Shown here: in pieces, positions 33,954 through 51,683 of the stretch | Layout: every line of letters starts with the position of its first letter | Position numbering within the stretch: the first letter of the stretch is position 1 | Notes under the pieces: generated by a model | What the model was told of the DNA's origin: nothing | Databases searched by the model: none | The model's input: only the letters and a program-made list of their open reading frames with translations | Assembly (NCBI RefSeq): GCF_001654455.1 | Contig: NZ_CP015772.1 | Location: forward strand, 4,030,001-4,094,000 | Reading direction: 5' to 3' | From: Niabella ginsenosidivorans | Lineage (GTDB): Bacteria > Bacteroidota > Bacteroidia > Chitinophagales > Chitinophagaceae | DNA length: 64,000 bases | Position numbers and translations under genes: made by a program

Positions 33954-35267
33954 ATGTCAAAGGTAATTGAGTTTGAGCAACAAAATCCAGATGCAGCAGC
34001 CATAGATATCGGCTCCAAAAAGATTTTCGTTTCCACTGACGGGGTTACGGTAAAAAGCTATGATACATTTACGACTGGCTATCGGCAATGCATTGAAGCG
34101 CTCCTGCAACAGAAAATAAAACGGGTTTGTATGGAAGCAACGGGTATTTACTGGATAGCCTTACACCAGATGCTGGAGGAAGCAGGCATGGAAGTCTGCC
34201 TTGTAAATCCTAAAGAAGTAAAACAGGTAAAGGGTAGAAAAACCGATGTAAAAGATGCGTGCTGGATGCAAAAAATGTTTAGTGCAGGCCTGGTACGGCA
34301 AAGCTATATACCCTCAGGAAAGTTAAAGGAGTTGCGCATGATGATCCGGGAGCGGGAAGATCTTATTAGTATGGGAAGTACCTATGTAAATAAGATGCAA
34401 AAAGCATTGGAGTTAATGAATATAAAACTCACAGAAGTGATTTGTCAGATAAATGGGACAAGCGGGATCCGGATGATCGAAGCCATCTTAAACGGAGAAC
34501 GCAATAAAGAAAAGCTGCTGTCTCTGTGTCACGTAAGCATCCGTGAAAAGAAAGCACAGCAGGTAATCAATGCGCTGGAAGGCCATTATAATGAAAGCTG
34601 GTTGTTTCTATTAGAACAAAGCTTAAATCTTTGGAAGGTTCATCAGCAACAACTGTTGCTTATTGATAAACATATCGAAGGCTTGTTGTGTAATCTTGAG
34701 CATGGCAAACAGTTCATTACAAGTGAACACAAAGCCAAGCCAATACGGCATCACAAGCCCATGATAACCGGCCTGCATCAGAAATTACTAAATATTTATG
34801 GTGCAGATGCCAATTGTATTCCTGGTATCACCGATTATACACTGCTGAAATTGTTGGGAGAAGTGGGAGCAGACATGAGCCGATTCCCAACGGCAAAACA
34901 TTTTGTAAGTTGGTGTGGCCTTTGTCCGGGCCATAACCAAAGTGGTTTAAAAAGCAGAAAATCGAAAATGAACAATCATTCTAATGCCGGTCAGACCTTC
35001 CGGGAAATAGCCCAGGCATTACTCAATAGTAAGTATGTGGCAATAGGAGCTTTTATCAGAAAACTTAAGAGCAGAAAGAATGCACGAATAGCGATCAAAG
35101 CAGGTGCCAGAAAAATAGCGGAAGCCTTTTATAACCTGCTAACAAAGGGAACGCAATACGTGGAACAGGGTATTGCAAAATATGAACAGCAATTAAAACA
35201 GCGTGAACAAAACTATTTACAAAAACTGGCTTTAAAACACGGATTAAAGATCATTGAAATACAATGA
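33954..35267 (+). CDS. IS110-family transposase
   Basis: The 437-residue recombinase has an N-terminal RuvC-like DEDD domain (AIDIGSKKIFVS near 16, RVCMEATGIYWIAL near 58, and DVKDACWMQKMF near 99) and a C-terminal transposase_20 domain with IPGITDYTLLKLLGE and SWCGLCPGHNQSG. It is clearly homologous along its length to the two identical transposases at 50373 and 55721 but has many substitutions. IS110 enzymes excise and insert the element without staggered-cut duplications, guided by an element-encoded RNA. The gene is intact. Confidence 0.95.
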   Translation: MSKVIEFEQQNPDAAAIDIGSKKIFVSTDGVTVKSYDTFTTGYRQCIEALLQQKIKRVCMEATGIYWIALHQMLEEAGMEVCLVNPKEVKQVKGRKTDVKDACWMQKMFSAGLVRQSYIPSGKLKELRMMIREREDLISMGSTYVNKMQKALELMNIKLTEVICQINGTSGIRMIEAILNGERNKEKLLSLCHVSIREKKAQQVINALEGHYNESWLFLLEQSLNLWKVHQQQLLLIDKHIEGLLCNLEHGKQFITSEHKAKPIRHHKPMITGLHQKLLNIYGADANCIPGITDYTLLKLLGEVGADMSRFPTAKHFVSWCGLCPGHNQSGLKSRKSKMNNHSNAGQTFREIAQALLNSKYVAIGAFIRKLKSRKNARIAIKAGARKIAEAFYNLLTKGTQYVEQGIAKYEQQLKQREQNYLQKLALKHGLKIIEIQ

Positions 35268-39099: not shown

Positions 39100-39318
39100 A
39101 TGGCCATGCAAAAAAAACGCTATAACCGGATAAAAATAGTGCTGTTAGAAAATGAAAAGTCAAATATATGGCTTGCTGAAGAATTGAGCGTAAGCAGGAC
39201 GACTGTTTCTAAATGGTGCACTAACGACAACCAACCTACGGTTGAAACATTATTTAAAATTGCGGAGGTGCTGGGGGTGAATGTGTGTGAGCTATTGGTG
39301 ACGGGGAAGAAAAATTAA
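39100..39318 (+). CDS. Small XRE-family HTH regulator 1
   Basis: The 72-residue protein is a single Cro/CI-type HTH domain: NRIKIVLLENEKSNIWLAEE, LSVSRTTVSKWCTNDNQP and TVETLFKIAEVLGVNVCELL. It begins in a duplicated leader. Such regulators often accompany restriction-modification systems, and the hsd operon lies just beyond on the opposite strand, so control of that operon is likely but unproven. The next paralogue starts 2 bp after its stop. Confidence 0.88.
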   Translation: MAMQKKRYNRIKIVLLENEKSNIWLAEELSVSRTTVSKWCTNDNQPTVETLFKIAEVLGVNVCELLVTGKKN

Positions 39319-39320
39319 TT

Positions 39321-39533
39321 ATGGCAGAAAAACGAATACTTAACCGGATCAAAAGCGTACTGGCTGATAAGGATAAAACGAATTTGTGGCTTGCCGAACA
39401 ATTGGGAAAAAATAAAAATACTATCTCAAAATGGTGCACCAACGATCAGCAGCCTACGCTGGAAACCTTGTTTGATATTGCTGCACTTTTGAAAGTGGAT
39501 GTACGTGAGCTATTGGTAAGTACGAAAAAATAA
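39321..39533 (+). CDS. Small XRE-family HTH regulator 2
   Basis: The 70-residue paralogue reads NRIKSVLADKDKTNLWLAEQ, LGKNKNTISKWCTNDQQP and TLETLFDIAALLKVDVRELL. It differs from its neighbours mainly in the recognition helix (KNKNTISK against SRTTVSK), so it may bind another operator. It has no leader of its own and is probably translated with gene 1. Confidence 0.85.
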   Translation: MAEKRILNRIKSVLADKDKTNLWLAEQLGKNKNTISKWCTNDQQPTLETLFDIAALLKVDVRELLVSTKK

Positions 39534-39573: not shown

Positions 39574-39789
39574 ATGGCCACACAAAAGAGACGTTTCAAC
39601 CGAATAAAGATTGTCCTTATTGAAAAGGAAAAATCAAACATCTGGCTTGCAGAACAGGTAGGTGTTAGTAAAGCTGCTGTTTCTAAATGGTGCACCAATG
39701 ATAATCAGCCTACAGTTGAAACCTTATTTAAGATTGCAGAAGTACTGGATGTGGAGGTTTGTGAGTTGCTGGTGACGGGGAAGAAATGA
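39574..39789 (+). CDS. Small XRE-family HTH regulator 3
   Basis: The 71-residue protein is closest to regulator 1 (NRIKIVLIEKEKSNIWLAEQ, VGVSKAAVSKWCTNDNQP, TVETLFKIAEVLDVEVCELL). Together with the shared leader this points to a duplication of gene 1 after gene 2 was in place. The recognition helix changed from SRTTVSK to SKAAVSK. Confidence 0.88.
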   Translation: MATQKRRFNRIKIVLIEKEKSNIWLAEQVGVSKAAVSKWCTNDNQPTVETLFKIAEVLDVEVCELLVTGKK

Positions 39790-40113: not shown

Positions 40114-41747
40114 TTAAATAGGAGGTAGGCCCAGTTCTTTCAAAAATTCATTATGCTTATCCGTACTGCTTTTGATACGTTCATTAATGGCTGCTAATTT
40201 TATATTTACGGCTTTCAGATCAATTTGCACTTCATCAACGGAGGTGCTCACATATCTTGAGATGTTCAAATTGTAAGCATTCTTTTCAATTTCTTCCATT
40301 GAAACCCTCCGGGCGTATCTTTCAATATGGTCCGGCCGGAACTGATAGGTTTCTACAATGTTGTTGATATGCTCCGGTTCTAAAGAGTTTTGCCGTTTCC
40401 CAGGCTTATATTGTTCCGACGCATTGATGAATAAAACATCATCTTGCTTTTTGCATTTTTTCAACACCAAAATACAAACGGGAATACCTGTAGAGTAAAA
40501 CAGGTTAGAAGGCAACCCGATAACCGTATCAATATGATTATCTTTTAGCAATTTGGTGCGGATACGTTCTTCTGCACCACCACGGAATAAAACGCCGTGC
40601 GGCAGTATGATGGCCATTGTTCCATCATCTTTTAAAAAATGAAACCCGTGTAGCAAAAAGGAAAAATCAGCAGCTGATTTTGGCGCTAAGCCATAACTTT
40701 TGAAACGAAAATCTTCGGCCAAAGTATCATTGGGTTCCCAACGCAGGCTAAAAGGAGGATTGGCAACAATGGCGTCAAATTCCGTTTTTTTTGCAGGATT
40801 CATTTCATTGAGCAGCTCCCATTGATTCAACAAGGTGTCTCCGTGGAATATCTCAAACTCAGTATCCTTCATGCCGTGCAACAGCATATTCATCCGTGCA
40901 AGGTTATACGTAGTGATGTTTTTTTCCTGCCCGTAAAGTTTACCGATAGTACCGCTCTCTTCTTTTAATTTGGTTCTTACATTCAGCAGCAAAGACCCCG
41001 AACCACAGGCAAAATCCAGCACTTTATCCAGTTTCGATTTAGGGCCTGTTGTAGGATCCTGGGAGTCTAAAATAACAATCCGGGAAAGAATGGTTGAAAT
41101 TTGCTGCGGCGTATAAAATTCTCCGGCCTTTTTGCCGGAGCCTGCTGCAAATTTTCCAATCAAATATTCATAGGCATCGCCAAGCGTATCGGTATCTGTA
41201 GAAAAATCGGCAATGCCTGTAGCTATTTTAGTGATTATCTTACAAAGTGTATCATTCTTATCTTCATACGTTTTACCAAGTTTTTCAGAGTTCAGGTTGA
41301 TTTCAGAAAATAAGCCTCTAAAAGAACTTTCGAACGATTCGTTTTCTATATGACGAAAACCTTTGTCCAGCGTTTTTAATAAATCTGGGTGTTGTGTACG
41401 AGCCAGTTCTGTAATATTGCTCCACAAGTATTTTGGTTGAATAACATAATGCACCTTTTTGCGCATTTGCCCTTCAAACTCCTCAATATCTTCCTTATTA
41501 TTCCTGTACCAAAGTTGCAGGGGGGCGGAACAATAAAATCTGCCCTCTTTTCCTTGGACGGGCTCTTAGGATAATCCTTTCCCAATTCTTTTTTTGCCGC
41601 TTCCTCGTAATTAAAGGACAGGTACCGAAGGAATAGAAACGAAAGCATATAATCACGGAAGTCATCCGCATTCATGGCTCCTCTTAAATCATTGGCTATG
41701 TCCCAAAGTGTATCACCTAACTTTTTATATTGTTCTTTTTGTGTCAT
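40114..41747 (-). pseudogene. hsdM: Type I restriction-modification DNA methyltransferase (HsdM), frameshifted
   Basis: The N-terminal part (41747 to about 41520) reads KEQYKKLGDTLWDIANDLRG and ends in KRADFIVPPPC before going out of frame. The rest, in another frame, continues PLQLWYRNNKEDIEEFEG and then the intact methylase: AdoMet motif DFACGSGS and catalytic NPPF, located 151-158 and 236-239 counting from the methionine at 41466. The two frames join if the run of six G at 41520-41525 (C on the coding strand) had seven. It is the last gene of the hsd operon and overlaps the anticodon-nuclease gene by 4 bp. It is inactive, phase-variable or mis-sequenced. Confidence 0.85.
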
Positions 41748-42946
41748 GCTGATGCTGTTTCTGCTGGGGTTTCTTCGTTAAATATCTGGGGGAAATAAAA
41801 TTCATACTTTCCCAGAAAACCATTTAAAATCCGTTTAAAAAGTGCTTTATTATCATCACCCATTTCTACCGGGTCAAATATGGAATATTTTCCATGGCTA
41901 AATAGTTGTAATGCCCGTTCAAAAAGTACTTCGTCTTCCAGGCCGTTAATACATTTATCAATTTTATCGTAGCCAAAAAAGGTGGCCGTTTTTTCTAAAA
42001 TACTTCTCAAAGAATTAAAGTGATACGTATAAATTGTATCTGATTCCGCTACTTTCTTTAGTTCGCTTAATGTAGCAATATGATGAAAAAAGGGGGTATC
42101 ATTAGTATCTTGCAAAGCATACCCTTCGGCCCCTCTATTATGCAGAAAGTAACGTTTGTTTTTTACCTTTCTGCCAAATTCATTGTAGAGCACATTGAAA
42201 AACAGGCTATGATGTGTTGAAATTACCGTTTTAATATCGTTGCCCTCTGCCGTCAGCAGGTTACATAAATCGCAGGCCACAGCAATGGCATTGTTTTCAT
42301 CCAAAGAGGATATGGGATCATCTATATAAATATATTTTACCCAACTATAGGCAGGATCTTTGTCGATGGCTAACTGGCAAATAGCCAGGAAAAAACACCA
42401 GATAAACAGCGTTTCCTCGCCCCTGGATATTTTAATATTTTCTACCGTTTGCTCCTGGCCATCAACAATGATGCTTCTGGAAAAAGCCACTGTAGATGCA
42501 TTATAATCAATATCAAATTTTAAATCCACATAGTTATTGAAAAAGGATTCAATTTTTGCATCTAAATCCAGCTCATGCAGTCCTCTAAAAAATTTAGAAT
42601 CTGAGTTTAACTGGATAAACCGGGTGGTATTATTTTCCAAATCATTATTCCAGGAAAACAAGTCTTCGGTAAAGGCATTAAAGTATAATGTGTCGGAGAC
42701 CATTTCGGTAGTGCCCAATACCGCCCCATCTTTATCGGAAATAAGCGCACCGCTGCCATCTGAAATTAGTGTTATATTTTCCTTTTTGCCCAATTCCTTA
42801 AACTCCATAGAAAGCCTGGTTTTTCCCGCACCATTATGTGCAAAGAACAACACCAAATCTTTTAATGGTCGATGGTCTCCCGTTAAATCCTTCCGGAAAT
42901 GCTGAGCTACTTCAGCCAGGGTTGCAAAATGGGTTATGGTATTCAT
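41744..42946 (-). CDS. prrC: PrrC-like anticodon nuclease
   Basis: The 400-residue protein matches E. coli PrrC (396 residues) in size, layout and location. The ABC-like ATPase has Walker A NGAGKT (residues 38-43), the signature KISRGEE (172-178), Walker B YIYIDDP (205-211) and a histidine switch VISTHH (241-246). The C-terminal part carries R314, E318 and H351, matching in spacing the PrrC catalytic triad Arg320, Glu324 and His356. PrrC cuts a tRNA anticodon loop when phage disarm the linked type I restriction enzyme. It lies between hsdS (3-bp gap) and hsdM (4-bp overlap). RloC is an alternative but is far longer because of a zinc-hook coiled coil. Confidence 0.82.
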   Translation of the reverse strand: MNTITHFATLAEVAQHFRKDLTGDHRPLKDLVLFFAHNGAGKTRLSMEFKELGKKENITLISDGSGALISDKDGAVLGTTEMVSDTLYFNAFTEDLFSWNNDLENNTTRFIQLNSDSKFFRGLHELDLDAKIESFFNNYVDLKFDIDYNASTVAFSRSIIVDGQEQTVENIKISRGEETLFIWCFFLAICQLAIDKDPAYSWVKYIYIDDPISSLDENNAIAVACDLCNLLTAEGNDIKTVISTHHSLFFNVLYNEFGRKVKNKRYFLHNRGAEGYALQDTNDTPFFHHIATLSELKKVAESDTIYTYHFNSLRSILEKTATFFGYDKIDKCINGLEDEVLFERALQLFSHGKYSIFDPVEMGDDNKALFKRILNGFLGKYEFYFPQIFNEETPAETASA

Positions 42947-42949
42947 ACA

Positions 42950-44176
42950 CTAATCATTCATTTTTGGAAACAAACCCTGCATTAATCCTTTTTTGTGCAA
43001 CTTCAATTGTTCTATTTTCTCTGCCTGTGCAGTAATGAGCTCATCTAATGCGGAAAGACAAGAAGCAATTTTTTGTTGCTCTTTTATAGATGGATATACA
43101 ATTGGCATTTTGGCAAGAGAACCAGCATTGACGTTTTTCTGTCCCCCCCCAATCTTTGTAGAATTAAAAAATACCTGACCAGTTTCAGAATTTATATAAT
43201 AGCATAGGAAAGTTGAATTTATGATTTCTGACTTAGGCCGAGTAATTAGTGTTGTGAAACTTTGAGAACCTTCATGTTTTTCAGGAACGACACATGTCGT
43301 ACCTGGGTATCCTGTTCTTGCAGTTAATAAATCACCAGCCTTCAGCCTTTTATTTTTATGTTCCTTTTCATAATCCCTATCAATAAAAATGATATCCTTG
43401 TCATCAAGATATCCTTCTTTTATATTCTGATTTCTAAATAAAATAATTCCGGACTTTCTATAAGCATGTGTAGCAGCACTTGCGATACCAACCATAATTT
43501 TGCTGGAAATATTTTCCAAAACTGTTTCCTCCCATTGTCCATCTTTCTCAAACTCCTTAAATCGATACTTCGGCGCTTTCTCGCCTCCCTGTGGAAAAAG
43601 ATTTTGCATCAATCCTTTTTTGTGGTCTTTAAGCAACTCCAACTTTTGGCTATGAGCTATAATCACTTCATCTAAAGACGAAAGACAGGAAGCAATTTTT
43701 TGTTGTTCGGTTATTGAAGGAAATGAAAGCTTTAATTTTTGATACTCAGAAATATAATAACGCTTGTGCTCTTTCGCATTAAACTTAATTTGAGAAATAA
43801 GTTCGTATATAAATCTTAAATCATCTTTGTTTTTGGGTCTTAATATTTTAATTGCAGACGACTTGACTTTAAAAGGAAAGTCAACAAATTTGCTATCAAC
43901 AGTAAAATCATCAAAAATTATTGCTGGTAAATTCTTATAAATGTCAAAATCTTCATTCGTATAACCTAAAATGAAACTCTTGTTCGCTGTTAATACAGGG
44001 ATTCCTTCGCTATGATAATTCGTGTCAGATACAATATAATTGTCTGGTCTTTCATACTCTAAAACATCTTCCAATATTTTTTCTTGCCATTTCCCTTCAT
44101 TCACAAACTCAGGAAAACGCAATTCAGGTATTAACCCTTCGGCTTTGCTCCGGATAAATTTTTTATTCTTGCTCAT
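42950..44176 (-). CDS. hsdS: Type I restriction-modification specificity subunit (HsdS)
   Basis: The 408-residue protein has two target-recognition domains (about residues 15-165 and 215-375), each followed by a conserved helix ending in L-K-x-H-K-K-G-L-M-Q-x-L-F-P, the spacer repeats of HsdS. Each domain ends in the I-x-E-Q-Q-K-I-A-S-C-L-S motif. The two domains differ, so it should read a bipartite DNA target and join HsdM and HsdR to it. The start is taken at 44176; the ATG at 44194 lies inside the DUF1016 gene. It overlaps that gene by 14 bp. Confidence 0.92.
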   Translation of the reverse strand: MSKNKKFIRSKAEGLIPELRFPEFVNEGKWQEKILEDVLEYERPDNYIVSDTNYHSEGIPVLTANKSFILGYTNEDFDIYKNLPAIIFDDFTVDSKFVDFPFKVKSSAIKILRPKNKDDLRFIYELISQIKFNAKEHKRYYISEYQKLKLSFPSITEQQKIASCLSSLDEVIIAHSQKLELLKDHKKGLMQNLFPQGGEKAPKYRFKEFEKDGQWEETVLENISSKIMVGIASAATHAYRKSGIILFRNQNIKEGYLDDKDIIFIDRDYEKEHKNKRLKAGDLLTARTGYPGTTCVVPEKHEGSQSFTTLITRPKSEIINSTFLCYYINSETGQVFFNSTKIGGGQKNVNAGSLAKMPIVYPSIKEQQKIASCLSALDELITAQAEKIEQLKLHKKGLMQGLFPKMND

Positions 44177-45200
44177 TGTCTCCCTCTGTTGCATTTATTT
44201 CGTTCAATACCAAGGTTTGCAGTTCCTCTTTGGGCAATAACAATTGGTATTCGGCCACGCCAATGGGTTTATTAATATCCTGCAGGGCTATCTCTACATC
44301 TAAATGATCTTTATCGGCGCAGAGGATAATGCCAACGGACGGGTTTTCATTTTCGCCTTTTTCCAATTTATCCAATAAAGAAAGATAGAGGTTCATTTTT
44401 CCTACATATTCTGCTTTAAAGCTGCCAATTTTCAATTCAATGGCCACCAACGACTGTAACCCCCTGTGGAAGAAAAGCATATCTACAAAGTATTCTTTGC
44501 CGTTATATTCCAGCCGGTATTGATTGCCGATAAATGAAAAACCTTTGCCTAATTCCAGCACAAAGGATTTAATTTTTTCTACCAATCGTTTTTCTAACTC
44601 CAATTCTTTAATGTGTTCGGTTATTCCTAAGAAACCAAGATTGTAAGCGTCTTTAAAGACTTCGTTGGCATAATCGGCATCAATGCCGGGAAGCGTTTCT
44701 CTAAAATTGTGCGACTTGATTTGCTTTTGGAAGTTGGCATAACTGTCCATTTTTATGGCGTTGAGCAATATGTCCCTGCTCCAACCTTTGGTTACGGCTT
44801 CATTGGCGTAATATGCAACGGCCTCAAGCGACTGCACTTTGTTGATTAGCAGCAGATTATGCCCCCATGGTAAAACTGCTACGGCCTGTAGCAGTTTTTG
44901 ATCTGCCAGATAGTAACGCTCATAAAACAGTTTCATATTCCACAAGTTGCGTGGCGATAAGCCCATATCAGGAAATTCATTTTTGAGGTCAACGGATAGT
45001 TGTTTTACAACACCACTGCCGTAGCCTTCTTCTAACTGTTTTTCAAAAAGTAATTTTCCTAAATTCCAATACACGGAGTTTGCGGTACTATTTACCTGCT
45101 TTGCAATCAGCGTTCGGGCAACACGGATTTCTGCGACAGCTTGCCGCAGTATTTCACTGTAATCTGAATCATTTATATTGATTTGAGGCTTATTACCCAT
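44163..45200 (-). CDS. DUF1016 (YhcG-like) PDDEXK nuclease-fold protein
   Basis: The 345-residue protein has an N-terminal DUF1016 helical domain (VAEIRVARTLIAKQVNSTANSVYWNLGKLL) and LSVDLKNEFPDMGLSPRNLWNMK, followed by a C-terminal nuclease-like fold: YNGKEYFVDMLFFHRGLQSLVAIELKIGSFKAEYVGKM, which has the D...E-x-K pattern. YhcG-like proteins are common in type I restriction operons and elsewhere; their substrate is not known. Here the gene lies between hsdR (11-bp gap) and hsdS (overlap), so it is made with the system. Confidence 0.88.
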   Translation of the reverse strand: MGNKPQININDSDYSEILRQAVAEIRVARTLIAKQVNSTANSVYWNLGKLLFEKQLEEGYGSGVVKQLSVDLKNEFPDMGLSPRNLWNMKLFYERYYLADQKLLQAVAVLPWGHNLLLINKVQSLEAVAYYANEAVTKGWSRDILLNAIKMDSYANFQKQIKSHNFRETLPGIDADYANEVFKDAYNLGFLGITEHIKELELEKRLVEKIKSFVLELGKGFSFIGNQYRLEYNGKEYFVDMLFFHRGLQSLVAIELKIGSFKAEYVGKMNLYLSLLDKLEKGENENPSVGIILCADKDHLDVEIALQDINKPIGVAEYQLLLPKEELQTLVLNEINATEGDNEQE

Positions 45201-45211
45201 TTCTTTATTTA

Positions 45212-48200
45212 TTATTCATAAGCCGCTAACCCACTTATCTCTCTGCCCTGGGCTAATTTTTTTAATTGGGGTACCAGGTCTTCCATCAATGCCAGTTCTT
45301 TTATCCTGCGTTCTTTCCAGCTCAATTCCAAAGGTTCTAACAGGTCGGTGAGTTTTTCACCGTCAAAAATCATCCGGCTCATTATTTTTTCTACAAAGCT
45401 TTTCAGGGCTGCCGTTTGCAAACCGTTTTTGTGCGCAATGGCAGCCAGCTCTTTGTTGTATTTGTCGTCTTTAAAAGCATTGAACATTGCTTTTAGTTCA
45501 TCTGCACTATACCCTTTTGTCCAATCCAGGCCATTAATGAACTCCGTTAAATCTTCCTGCTCGTCCATCAGGTTCGCATCGGAACTAATTAAACGGATCA
45601 CCTGCGCTTTCGTCATTTGCTGCTTAGCCGGCTTCTTCTGCGTATTGTCGGCTATCAGGTTCATAATGTAATCGTAATCAATTATGGCTGAAGCAAAAAG
45701 TACAAACTCAAAATCCAGCTGCTGCACTTCCGCCGGTGCCTGTTCGCCTTCCTGTTGTTGAATTTGCTGCAGCTGCTTCGCCGTTTCCAGGTAAGAGCTT
45801 CTAAAGGAACGCAGCATTGCCTCGGGCAATATAGCTTCTATTTTAGCCTGCTGCTCCTCATCCAGATCCGTATATTGATCCAGCTGGGTTTTCAAACGCT
45901 GTACTTCTTTAAAGCGTTTGATAAAGTGAATGCGGGCAGTATCACCCTTCAGGTTATAAACAGCTTCCGGCTCACAAAGCAAATTACTGTCTTGCATAAA
46001 TAAGTCCAATGCTGCCACCGCTTTTTCAAACTTTTCAATTACCACAGGCGCCGGATCCACCATCCAAATTTCCCGGGCCTTACCGGGATCTTCGCCGGAG
46101 AACATGGTAATAGCTCCATCCACCGCATCTTTTTGATGTCGGAAATCCAGGATGTTACCATAGGGCTTGGTGTCATTCAGTACACGATTAGTGCGGGAAA
46201 AAGCCTGTATTAACCCATGATGCTTCAGGTTTTTATCTACATACAGCGTATTCAGGTATTTGGAATCAAAACCAGTAAGCAGCATATCCACCACAATTAA
46301 AATATCAATCTTATTTTTATGTGGATAGTCGGTATTGCTGTATTGATGGTCCTTGATGCGTTTTTGCACGTCCTGGTAATATAAATCAAATTCATTGATG
46401 GAGTGGTTGGTGCCATACTGCTTGTTGTATTCAGCAATAATGCTCTTTAACGCTTCTTTTTTCTCATCAGGATTTTGTTTATTATCTTCCTTTTCCTGTT
46501 CCAGGTCCTCCTGCAACTGCTTTATATCGGCGGCATTTTTACCATCCTTATCCAGTGCCTGAACGGGTGGCGAGAATACACAGGCTATATTGAGTGGAGC
46601 ATACTCCTTGTTTTCCTGCTGCTTCTTTTTTTGAACCTCCTTAAAGAGTTTATAATATTCAATGGCATTATTGATAGAAGCGGTTGCCAGAATTGCATTG
46701 AACTTGCGGAAATTGGTGGCGGCATTGTGTTTATCAATAACGGCCTCAACCACGGCCTGCTGCGTAATAGCCTCACCGGATTTTGCATTCACTTTACCTT
46801 CTCCCTTAAAGTAATCAACATGAAAACGCAATACATTCCTGTCATCTATTGCATGCGTAATGGTATATGCGTGTAACAGTTTTTCAAAAACATCTTGAGT
46901 GGTTTTATAAAAACCAGATTCGCCCTCCCTTTGCGTATAAATAGCGTTATCATCAAAGATCGGTGTACCGGTAAAACCAAAAAGCTGTGCGTTAGGAAAA
47001 AACTCCTTAATAGCATCATGGTTATCGCCAAACTGGGAACGATGGCATTCGTCAAAAATGAAAACGATCCGGCTATCCTTCAAAGGTTCCAACCGCTCCT
47101 TATAGGTTTCTTTGCCTTCTTTTTCTTTTTTCTTGTTGCGTTTGCTGTTTTCATCTAATGCCAAACCCAATTTTTGAATGGTGGTAACAATCACTTTATC
47201 GGCATAGTCGGTAGATAGCAGGCGCCTTACCAATGTTTCTGTATTGGTATTTTCCTCTACACTGCCTTCCTGGAACCGGTTAAACTCTTCACGGGTTTGC
47301 CGGTCGAGGTCTTTACGATCTACTACGAACAAACACTTTTCAATATCAGGATTGTCTTTTAAAAGTGTTGAAGCTTTGAATGAGGTTAATGTTTTACCAC
47401 TTCCCGTTGTATGCCAGATATAGCCATTGCCACGGTTTTGGTGAATGCAATCTACAATAGCTTTAACTGCGTAAATTTGGTAGGGACGCATTACCAGCAG
47501 CCGTTGCTCGCTTTCTACCAACACCATATACTTGCTGATCATTTCGCCCAAAGTGCATTTAGATAAAAATTTATCAGCAAATGAATCCAGATGAGAGATT
47601 TTATTGTTTTTCTCATCCGCCAATTTGTACACCGGTAAAAATTGCTCATCTGCATTAAAACTGAAATGCTGGTTTTTATTATTAGCGAAATAGTAGGTAT
47701 TGGTTTGATTACTTACAATAAACAACTGCATAAAGCAGAGGAGTGAATTGGTATAACCATTGCCTGGGTCATTTTTGTAGCTCACAATCTGCTGCATTGC
47801 TTTACGCGGGCTTATGTCTAAACCCTTTACTTCTATTTGAACAACAGGAATACCGTTAATCAAAATAATTACATCATACCGGTGGTTGCTGTTCTCCGTA
47901 TTAACGCGCAATTGGTTGATAACCTCAAACTCATTCTTACACCAGTCCTTAATATTTACCAGCGTATAATACAGGGGTGTGCCGTCCTCCCGTTGGAAAT
48001 AATTACGTTCCCGTAATAATTTAGAAGCAGCGAAGACATCCGGATTTATAATTTCATCTCGCAAACGAGCAAACTCAGCATTTGTAAGCCGTACCCGATT
48101 GAGCGATTCAAATTTTTCACGAAAATTAATTTCCAGGGCATTACGATCCCGGATGTCTCCACGATAGGTGTACTTTAAATCTGTTAGCTTTTTAATTAAA

Positions 48201-48262
48201 TCTTCTTCTATTTGTTGCTCTTTTACCATAGAAAACACTGTTACAAAATCCTTGGAGGGCAA
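45212..48262 (-). CDS. hsdR: Type I restriction enzyme motor/nuclease subunit (HsdR)
   Basis: The 1016-residue subunit moves along DNA and cuts it when HsdM/HsdS meet an unmodified target. The N-terminal nuclease has D130 in RYDVIILING and E144-V-K146 in VVQIEVKG. The SF2 helicase core has Walker A TGSGKT near 286, DECHRSQFGD near 395 and LFGFTGTP near 423. The C-terminal region contacts the other subunits. It opens the operon hsdR, DUF1016, hsdS, prrC, hsdM. An ATG at 48229 (MVKEQQIEEDL) is a reasonable alternative start. Confidence 0.95.
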   Translation of the reverse strand: MPSKDFVTVFSMVKEQQIEEDLIKKLTDLKYTYRGDIRDRNALEINFREKFESLNRVRLTNAEFARLRDEIINPDVFAASKLLRERNYFQREDGTPLYYTLVNIKDWCKNEFEVINQLRVNTENSNHRYDVIILINGIPVVQIEVKGLDISPRKAMQQIVSYKNDPGNGYTNSLLCFMQLFIVSNQTNTYYFANNKNQHFSFNADEQFLPVYKLADEKNNKISHLDSFADKFLSKCTLGEMISKYMVLVESEQRLLVMRPYQIYAVKAIVDCIHQNRGNGYIWHTTGSGKTLTSFKASTLLKDNPDIEKCLFVVDRKDLDRQTREEFNRFQEGSVEENTNTETLVRRLLSTDYADKVIVTTIQKLGLALDENSKRNKKKEKEGKETYKERLEPLKDSRIVFIFDECHRSQFGDNHDAIKEFFPNAQLFGFTGTPIFDDNAIYTQREGESGFYKTTQDVFEKLLHAYTITHAIDDRNVLRFHVDYFKGEGKVNAKSGEAITQQAVVEAVIDKHNAATNFRKFNAILATASINNAIEYYKLFKEVQKKKQQENKEYAPLNIACVFSPPVQALDKDGKNAADIKQLQEDLEQEKEDNKQNPDEKKEALKSIIAEYNKQYGTNHSINEFDLYYQDVQKRIKDHQYSNTDYPHKNKIDILIVVDMLLTGFDSKYLNTLYVDKNLKHHGLIQAFSRTNRVLNDTKPYGNILDFRHQKDAVDGAITMFSGEDPGKAREIWMVDPAPVVIEKFEKAVAALDLFMQDSNLLCEPEAVYNLKGDTARIHFIKRFKEVQRLKTQLDQYTDLDEEQQAKIEAILPEAMLRSFRSSYLETAKQLQQIQQQEGEQAPAEVQQLDFEFVLFASAIIDYDYIMNLIADNTQKKPAKQQMTKAQVIRLISSDANLMDEQEDLTEFINGLDWTKGYSADELKAMFNAFKDDKYNKELAAIAHKNGLQTAALKSFVEKIMSRMIFDGEKLTDLLEPLELSWKERRIKELALMEDLVPQLKKLAQGREISGLAAYE

Positions 48263-50372: not shown

Positions 50373-51683
50373 CTATATTTCAACTAATTTCAAGTTGTGT
50401 TTTGTAGCCAGTTTCAATAAATACTGTTGCTCGCGTTGCTTTAATTGCTGTTCATATTTAGCAGCTCCTTGTTCTAAATAAGCTGTCCCTTTAGTCAGTA
50501 AGTTATAAAATGCAATAGCAATTTTTCTGGCTCCTGCTTTTATTGCAATTGCGGGACCTTTCCTGGTGCGTATTCTGCGTATAAATGTTCCAATGGCTAT
50601 AGGTTTGCTATTGAGCAGCGATTGTGCGATCTCCCTGAATATCTGGCCCACTCTGGAACTGTTTTTCATTTTTGCTTTCCTGCTGCGGCTGCCGCTTTGG
50701 TTATGACCAGGGGAAAGCCCGCACCAGCTTACATAATGCTTTTCCGTAGGAAATCTACTCAGATCGGTACCTGTTTCTCCCAGCAGCTTCAACATAGAAT
50801 AGTTGGTTACTCCCGGCAGACAGCCCGCATCTACACCGTATATATTGAGCAATTTTTGATTTAAATCCTTAATCATTGGCTTATGATGGCGTACGGGCTT
50901 CTCCTTATGTACCGGCGCTACAAATGAACTACCTTGCTCCAGAAAAGAAAGCAACACTTCCATACGCTGATCTACTATGAGTATTTGCTGCTCATGAATT
51001 TTCCAAAGCTTGAGGTTCTGTTCCAACAAGAACAGCCAGCTTTCATTGTAGTTGCCTTCTAAGGCCATCAATACCTCGTCTGCCTTTTTATCTTTTATAC
51101 TTTTGTGACACAGGCTTAATAATACCTTTCCGTCCCTTTCCCCTCTAAGGATCGCCTCTATCATACGGATACCACTGACACCAGTAATCTGAGAAATAAC
51201 CTCCGTCAATTTGATGTTCATCAACTCTAATGCCTTCTGCATTTTATTTACATAACTGCTGCCCATACTGATAATATCTTCCCGCTCCCGCATTAGCATC
51301 CGGAGTTCTTTCAATCTACCGGCCGGTATATAGCTTTGCCGTACCAATCCTGCACTAAACATTTTCTGCATCCAACAGGCATCCGCAACATCTGTCTTCC
51401 GACCTTTTACCTGCTTTACCTCTTTGGGATTTACCAGGCATACACAGAAACCGGCTTGCTCCAGCAGCTCATGCAGCGCAATCCAGTAGACGCCTGTAGC
51501 CTCCATACATACAGTTTTCACCTGCTGGCTCCTAAGATCTTCAATACACTTACGATAGCTAAACGTAAAAGTATCGTAACTTTTAACCGTAATCCCATCA
51601 CAGGAAACGAAGATTCTCTTTGAGCCGATATCAATAGCGGCTGCACACGCATTGTGTTGTTCAAAACTGACTAAATTTGACAT
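50373..51683 (-). CDS. IS110-family transposase (copy A)
   Basis: The 436-residue recombinase has the DEDD residues D18 (AIDIGSKR), E61 (CMEATGVYW), D98 and D101 (TDVADACWMQ), and a C-terminal domain with LPGVTNYSMLKLLGE and SWCGLSPGHNQSG. IS110 enzymes form Holliday-like intermediates and leave no target duplication. It should act with the RNA coded just upstream. Intact and identical to the copy at 55721. Confidence 0.96.
   Translation of the reverse strand: MSNLVSFEQHNACAAAIDIGSKRIFVSCDGITVKSYDTFTFSYRKCIEDLRSQQVKTVCMEATGVYWIALHELLEQAGFCVCLVNPKEVKQVKGRKTDVADACWMQKMFSAGLVRQSYIPAGRLKELRMLMREREDIISMGSSYVNKMQKALELMNIKLTEVISQITGVSGIRMIEAILRGERDGKVLLSLCHKSIKDKKADEVLMALEGNYNESWLFLLEQNLKLWKIHEQQILIVDQRMEVLLSFLEQGSSFVAPVHKEKPVRHHKPMIKDLNQKLLNIYGVDAGCLPGVTNYSMLKLLGETGTDLSRFPTEKHYVSWCGLSPGHNQSGSRSRKAKMKNSSRVGQIFREIAQSLLNSKPIAIGTFIRRIRTRKGPAIAIKAGARKIAIAFYNLLTKGTAYLEQGAAKYEQQLKQREQQYLLKLATKHNLKLVEI

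Follow-up and report, generated by a model that had tools for sequence, protein, structure and literature searches.

The window, the whole 64,000-nucleotide stretch of Niabella ginsenosidivorans DNA analysed here, contains a type I restriction operon on the minus strand that carries a gene for a PrrC-type protein, a kind of defence enzyme that protects DNA restriction by cutting tRNA. The features of the operon are as follows.

45212..48262, minus strand: hsdR, 1016 aa, EcoR124-type (PADLOC REase_I, E 0; EcoR124_C, E 1e-62); translation more likely begins at the ATG at 48229
44163..45200, minus strand: DUF1016/YhcG accessory gene, PD-(D/E)XK-type, 345 aa, lying between hsdR and hsdS
42950..44194, minus strand: hsdS, 414 aa, intact, with two target-recognition domains (Pfam Methylase_S in two stretches; PADLOC Specificity_I)
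41744..42946, minus strand: prrC, 400 aa, ATG start, read from 42946 to 41744; Rad50/SMC-like ABC ATPase (residues ~5–290) and predicted C-terminal helical nuclease domain (~288–380)
42005..42007, minus strand: codon of R314, predicted catalytic, equivalent to R320 of E. coli PrrC (alignment, invariant in 90 proteins)
41993..41995, minus strand: codon of E318, predicted catalytic, equivalent to E324 (alignment, invariant in 90 proteins)
41915–41917, minus strand: codon of R344, the Arg of a HEPN-type R-x6-H motif with H351
41894..41896, minus strand: codon of H351, predicted catalytic, equivalent to H356 (alignment, His in 82/82)
41376..41747, minus strand: hsdM 5' fragment, 123 aa, of which approximately the first 74 are read in frame (Pfam HsdM_N, residues 10–81)
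41520..41525, minus strand: C6 run where hsdM goes out of frame (sequence and alignment)
40114..41466, minus strand: hsdM 3' fragment, 450 aa if counted from its first ATG, with a complete methylase domain (Pfam N6_Mtase, E 1e-104)

Profile matches from Pfam, NCBIfam and PADLOC confirm the order hsdR, DUF1016/YhcG, hsdS, prrC, hsdM, in agreement with an earlier note that had placed prrC within a type I restriction operon, between hsdS and hsdM. The coordinates likewise reproduce the spacing given there, with a gap of 3 bp from the end of hsdS to prrC and a 4-bp overlap of prrC with the start of hsdM at 41747. The linkage of an hsdR containing an EcoR124_C domain with hsdS and hsdM identifies the operon as type I, EcoR124-like and IC-type. 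The accessory gene matches the Pfam profiles YhcG_C (E 9e-57) and DUF1016_N (E 2e-37) and the PADLOC profile PDC-S02, and the hsdM 3' fragment matches NCBIfam TIGR00497 hsdM (E 6e-106).

The 400-residue protein is a bona fide PrrC-family member by every sequence test run, and an ordinary representative of the family. The PADLOC PrrC profile PDLC02360 matches residues 6–388 with E = 2e-131, while the next PADLOC family reaches 4e-16; E. coli PrrC from the plasmid locus used as a yardstick (L113) scores 1.5e-147 against the same profile. Pfam recognizes the AAA_13 part alone (E 5e-17), and no NCBIfam model was found to match the protein. It aligns with E. coli PrrC column by column, over nearly the whole length, with 31% identity (pairwise E = 3e-51), and its length and continuous ATPase domain fit the published range for PrrC of 341–416 aa with no coiled-coil/zinc-hook insert (PMC2610378). 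The ATPase motifs that the earlier note had reported are all present: Walker A (N38-G-A-G-K-T43), the ABC signature (K172-I-S-R-G-E-E178), the Walker B/D-loop (Y207-I-D-D-P-I-S-S-L-D216) and the switch His, H245. In an alignment of 82–90 PrrC proteins, the residues of Walker A, the signature and the Walker B/D-loop are invariant or nearly so. With regard to the PrrC box, a further nearly invariant block, Y88 to D102, was seen between Walker A and the signature. Compared with the Chitinophaga sp. operon L005, prrC has a dN/dS of ~0.03 and is under strong purifying selection. Phage records gave no match, and a sequence search of the PDB recovered no relative of PrrC whose structure has been solved.

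The proposed catalytic triad R314/E318/H351 is similarly upheld. It has the arrangement R314-X3-E318-X32-H351, with spacings of 4 and 33, and shares alignment columns with R320/E324/H356 of the 396-aa L113 protein, which lie at the published positions with spacings of 4 and 32 and are the catalytic residues of E. coli PrrC (PMC2610378). The triad is invariant in 90/90 PrrC proteins, comprising that of the window and those of the other loci. Because of this invariance, the profile score and the identity to the E. coli protein over nearly its whole extent, a chance resemblance to PrrC is dismissed. R344 and H351 form an R-x6-H motif in which the Arg is found in 80/82 proteins, the His in 82/82 and the spacing of 6 in 82/82; R-x4-6-H is a motif of the HEPN superfamily, to which the PrrC/RloC branch belongs (PMC3710099).

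The tRNA target is less certain than the family assignment because identity to E. coli PrrC lies in the range of 31–34%. A PrrC that acts on an RNA other than tRNA-Lys is thus a serious possibility, if not the one that we favor; it is encouraged by this divergence, by a D287-region segment that is two residues shorter in the window protein, and by the different substrate preference of the related RloC (PMC2610378). Against it, D283 aligns with D287 of E. coli PrrC, the residue in contact with the tRNA-Lys wobble base (PMC3014915), and is Asp in 67/82 and Glu in 11/82 proteins, while H289, the equivalent of H295, is kept in 82/82.

The position of prrC was compared across 83 PrrC-bearing loci, 80 from a scan of a genome collection with one genome per species and three from plasmid records. 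PrrC lies in restriction-modification (R-M) operons in all loci surveyed. The earlier note had singled out the gene order as a departure from the classical E. coli locus, but R-S-PrrC-M turns out to be the commonest arrangement, found in 68/83 loci, and most of the remaining loci show the same order interrupted by a contig end or lacking an S match. The arrangement M-S-PrrC-R also occurs inside the bacterial family of the window: hsdR follows prrC in L085–L087, and in L095/L109 hsdM precedes and hsdR follows it. DUF1016 lies between R and S in ~10 loci, and elsewhere the R-S and S-M slots carry RhuM, ORF6N, Bro-N, DUF1828/1829 or TrlF genes. In Campylobacter, ORFs inserted at precisely this pair of positions are on record (PMC5183652), and RhuM neighbors of PrrC/RloC have been described (PMC3710099). 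In view of the survey counts and both precedents, the order is not new. In two loci, L072 and L079, a DUF1016/YhcG gene lies between prrC and hsdM. The operon has a GC content of 36–41%, versus about 44–45%, and PrrC is present in 1/17 genomes of the genus. As judged from sequence, prrC very probably encodes a PrrC-family anticodon nuclease and is cargo of the hsdS–hsdM slot in an operon obtained by horizontal transfer.

The histories of PrrC and its R-M partners differ. PrrC proteins were grouped by identity to the window protein into classes A (≥62%), B (44–58%) and C (~30%), and quick trees of PrrC and HsdM were built from the same 81 loci, which had been sampled through PrrC. Each class forms one clade in the PrrC tree (2 changes), whereas the HsdM tree requires 18 class changes, compared with 26 for shuffled labels; its starred branches force at least 12–13 changes when each of the two large classes is considered by itself. 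When restricted to the 68 loci with a long HsdR, the class changes number 1 for PrrC, 13 for HsdM and 14 for HsdR. The HsdR and HsdM trees have 25/65 splits in common, and PrrC shares 9–10 with either; the correlation of identity to the window is 0.81 for HsdM with HsdR, versus 0.43 for HsdM with PrrC. The C-terminus of hsdS tracks the R-M backbone rather than the PrrC class. The clearest swap is found in L093, a locus of the same family, where HsdM and HsdR are 88% and 83% identical to those of the window and PrrC is 29% identical. The hsdS–hsdM slot is empty in two relatives, L131 and L135, and in L134 it holds a gene that reads as RhuM-like from its sequence. These comparisons point to PrrC as an exchangeable effector cassette, acquired and replaced by different R-M backbones, an interpretation that is better supported than that of an hsdM on/off switch. 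A prior report of prrC as such a cassette was not found in the literature. Docking of PrrC on Hsd is suggested to be permissive, since divergent PrrC lineages appear to have been swapped repeatedly in one R-M backbone. Near-identical R-M backbones with divergent PrrC classes in the same hsdS–hsdM slot are seen among the loci L005 to L094 and L125 to L139.

A one-base frameshift at the C6 run splits hsdM into two open reading frames, while prrC, hsdS and hsdR are intact. In 16/16 relatives aligned at this site hsdM is in frame, and the C run was found in none of them. The hsdM open frames of contig-complete relatives from the same family and order span 538–557 aa, against 483 in the window. Among the other surveyed loci, a change of hsdM frame is seen just in the plasmid locus L003 and in the overlapping pair L097/L110. 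The former, on the Prosthecochloris plasmid pPAES01 (L003 11122–12734), is a second natural case of an intact prrC beside a frameshifted hsdM. Relative to L005, the dN/dS of hsdM is 0.014 before the C6 site and 0.025 after it, and a further lesion was not found. Because both halves are so strongly conserved, the event may be recent, an assembly error or a switch.

Since PrrC as a backup when phage block restriction, as predicted by the earlier note, needs a working HsdM, this role is in doubt here, and the coupling of PrrC to restriction may be broken in this strain. The genome holds two further type I systems, but a rescue by either is unlikely, as their HsdM proteins share just 38% and 31% identity with that of the window. 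The frameshift might nevertheless be unreal, through an assembly error at the C run, or harmless, through recoding, in which case the PrrC–R-M system would work as in E. coli. We consider this plausible but on balance not the better explanation. The lesion falls within a homopolymer, the most frequent site of errors, and the low dN/dS of both halves, the lack of a second lesion and the intact companion genes all accord with a functional hsdM; a recent real mutation is, however, equally compatible with the low dN/dS. The assembly is not error-ridden, as 66/67 TonB-receptor matches both exceed the family cut-off and have no internal stop, nearly all of them in long open frames. This control, in which no general frameshift noise was seen among TonB receptors, makes general assembly error an unlikely cause of the split. 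As for recoding, the C6 run is by inspection not a classic -1 slippery heptamer.

That the C run is a contingency tract, whose shifts of hsdM in and out of frame would switch modification, restriction and PrrC masking together, is improbable. The change is of a single base in a homopolymer, the gene is otherwise perfectly kept and adjoins a self-toxic gene, and other bacteria are known to have phase-variable type I systems (PMC10790761); C6 is nonetheless short for such tracts, and the run is missing from all the aligned relatives. Slightly more doubtful still is the full on/off switch, in which out-of-frame cells would lose modification and unmask or destabilize PrrC. If true, a phase-variable R-M system would also set the state of the tRNA-cutting guard.

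Three tandem XRE-type HTH genes (39100–39318, 39321–39533 and 39574–39789) are on the opposite strand and point toward the hsdM 3' end; a 256-nt duplication with 79% identity comprises units 1 and 3 and their leader. In 14 relatives the gene immediately upstream of hsdR, in the same orientation, is a homologous HTH gene (identity up to 89%). Because the HTH genes of the window instead lie beyond hsdM, the operon appears from this arrangement to be flipped relative to its HTH regulator. An invertible operon was considered in view of this position, yet convincing bordering inverted repeats were not found, and no switch is claimed. IS110-family transposase genes flank the operon region (33954–35267 and 50373–51683), and the latter copy belongs to a family with several copies of 99–100% identity in the genome.

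An AlphaFold2 model of the window PrrC was built from 73 sequences with a mean pLDDT of 82.8. Residues 5–290 adopt a Rad50/SMC-like head, for which Rad50 gives the best Z of 12.8 (rmsd 3.4–6.0, 204–222 residues aligned). R314 and E318 lie one turn apart on the same helix (residues 307–324), and H351 is located at the end of helix 339–350; as far as these helix positions show, the refuting outcome named by the earlier note, triad residues set far apart, did not arise. The C-terminal domain, modeled alone (pLDDT 78.8), is a helical bundle that matches the HEPN structure 8yuf with a Z of 5.8 (rmsd 4.1, 101 residues aligned), although unrelated four-helix bundles score similarly; the same holds for the other HEPN matches, 2hsb (Z 5.0) and 1wol (Z 4.9), with unrelated bundles at like Z. 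Foldseek ranks SMC/Rad50 heads and the retron Eco8 and Ec78 ATPases first, and PADLOC also returns weak PDC-S06 and LmuB matches, but another identity, whether as an AAA/ABC ATPase that is not a nuclease or as an effector of the RloC, PtuA or retron type, is very unlikely, as the PrrC profile leads by more than 100 orders of magnitude, the nuclease triad is invariant among the PrrC proteins, and 400 aa leaves no space for the coiled-coil/zinc hook of RloC (658–897 aa).

By analogy with E. coli, an ABC-ATPase dimer docked on the Hsd complex would keep the HEPN-type nuclease at the C-terminus latent. Once a phage product, such as an anti-restriction peptide, blocked the Hsd enzyme, GTP hydrolysis together with dTTP would release the nuclease, which would then cut a tRNA anticodon loop, probably that of tRNA-Lys, and stop translation. 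In E. coli, the Hsd complex keeps PrrC latent, whereas the free protein is active, though very labile (PMC3014915). HsdM, the docking partner, is probably damaged in this strain, with the coupling weakened or lost, and PrrC is probably kept in check by a low level of expression or by instability of the protein itself, not by an intact Hsd complex. A strain with an intact prrC next to a broken hsdM constitutes a natural test of whether PrrC silence requires an intact methylase. The textbook defence-of-the-defence enzyme is now extended to a Chitinophagaceae genome, in an hsdR-hsdS-prrC-hsdM layout that is common in the sampled set; the hsdM lesion and the cassette behavior add interest beyond that of an ordinary PrrC member.

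A comparison with E. coli PrrC of the EcoprrI (prrABCD) locus, represented by L113, reveals a similar length (400 versus 396 aa), the same ATPase motifs and R/E/H triad, an equivalent of D287, and a type I operon in which prrC immediately follows hsdS. The two differ in gene order, R-(DUF1016)-S-PrrC-M versus M-S-PrrC-R (hsdM-hsdS-prrC-hsdR), in sequence, at the 31% identity given above, and in the frameshifted hsdM of the window. RloC has an ABC ATPase and the same catalytic triad as PrrC (PMC2610378), but measures 658–897 aa, contains a CXXC zinc-hook coiled-coil insert and is rarely linked to R-M systems; RloC identity is rejected for the window protein, which at 400 aa lacks the insert. 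The Campylobacter jejuni hsd loci with rlo/mlo ORFs share the plan hsdR-(ORF)-hsdS-(ORF)-hsdM (Miller et al. 2005, as cited in PMC5183652); by that description, PrrC would occupy the 'mlo' slot and DUF1016 the 'rlo' slot, with different cargo genes. Also close are the Bacteroidota operons of Chitinophaga sp. (L005), Flavobacterium sp. (L006) and Chryseobacterium shigense (L012), which share the R-S-PrrC-M order and whose PrrC proteins are 78–85% identical to that of the window; in L012 a DUF1016 gene fills the corresponding slot as well. Compared with these, the window PrrC has 17–19 extra residues, mostly at ~60–84, where a stretch of variable sequence separates Walker A from the conserved block that follows. 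Their hsdM genes are in frame, in contrast to that of the window. The PrrC-type protein is of a known kind in its usual place, but the adjoining methylase gene, which would be expected to contribute to its silencing, is frameshifted in this genome.
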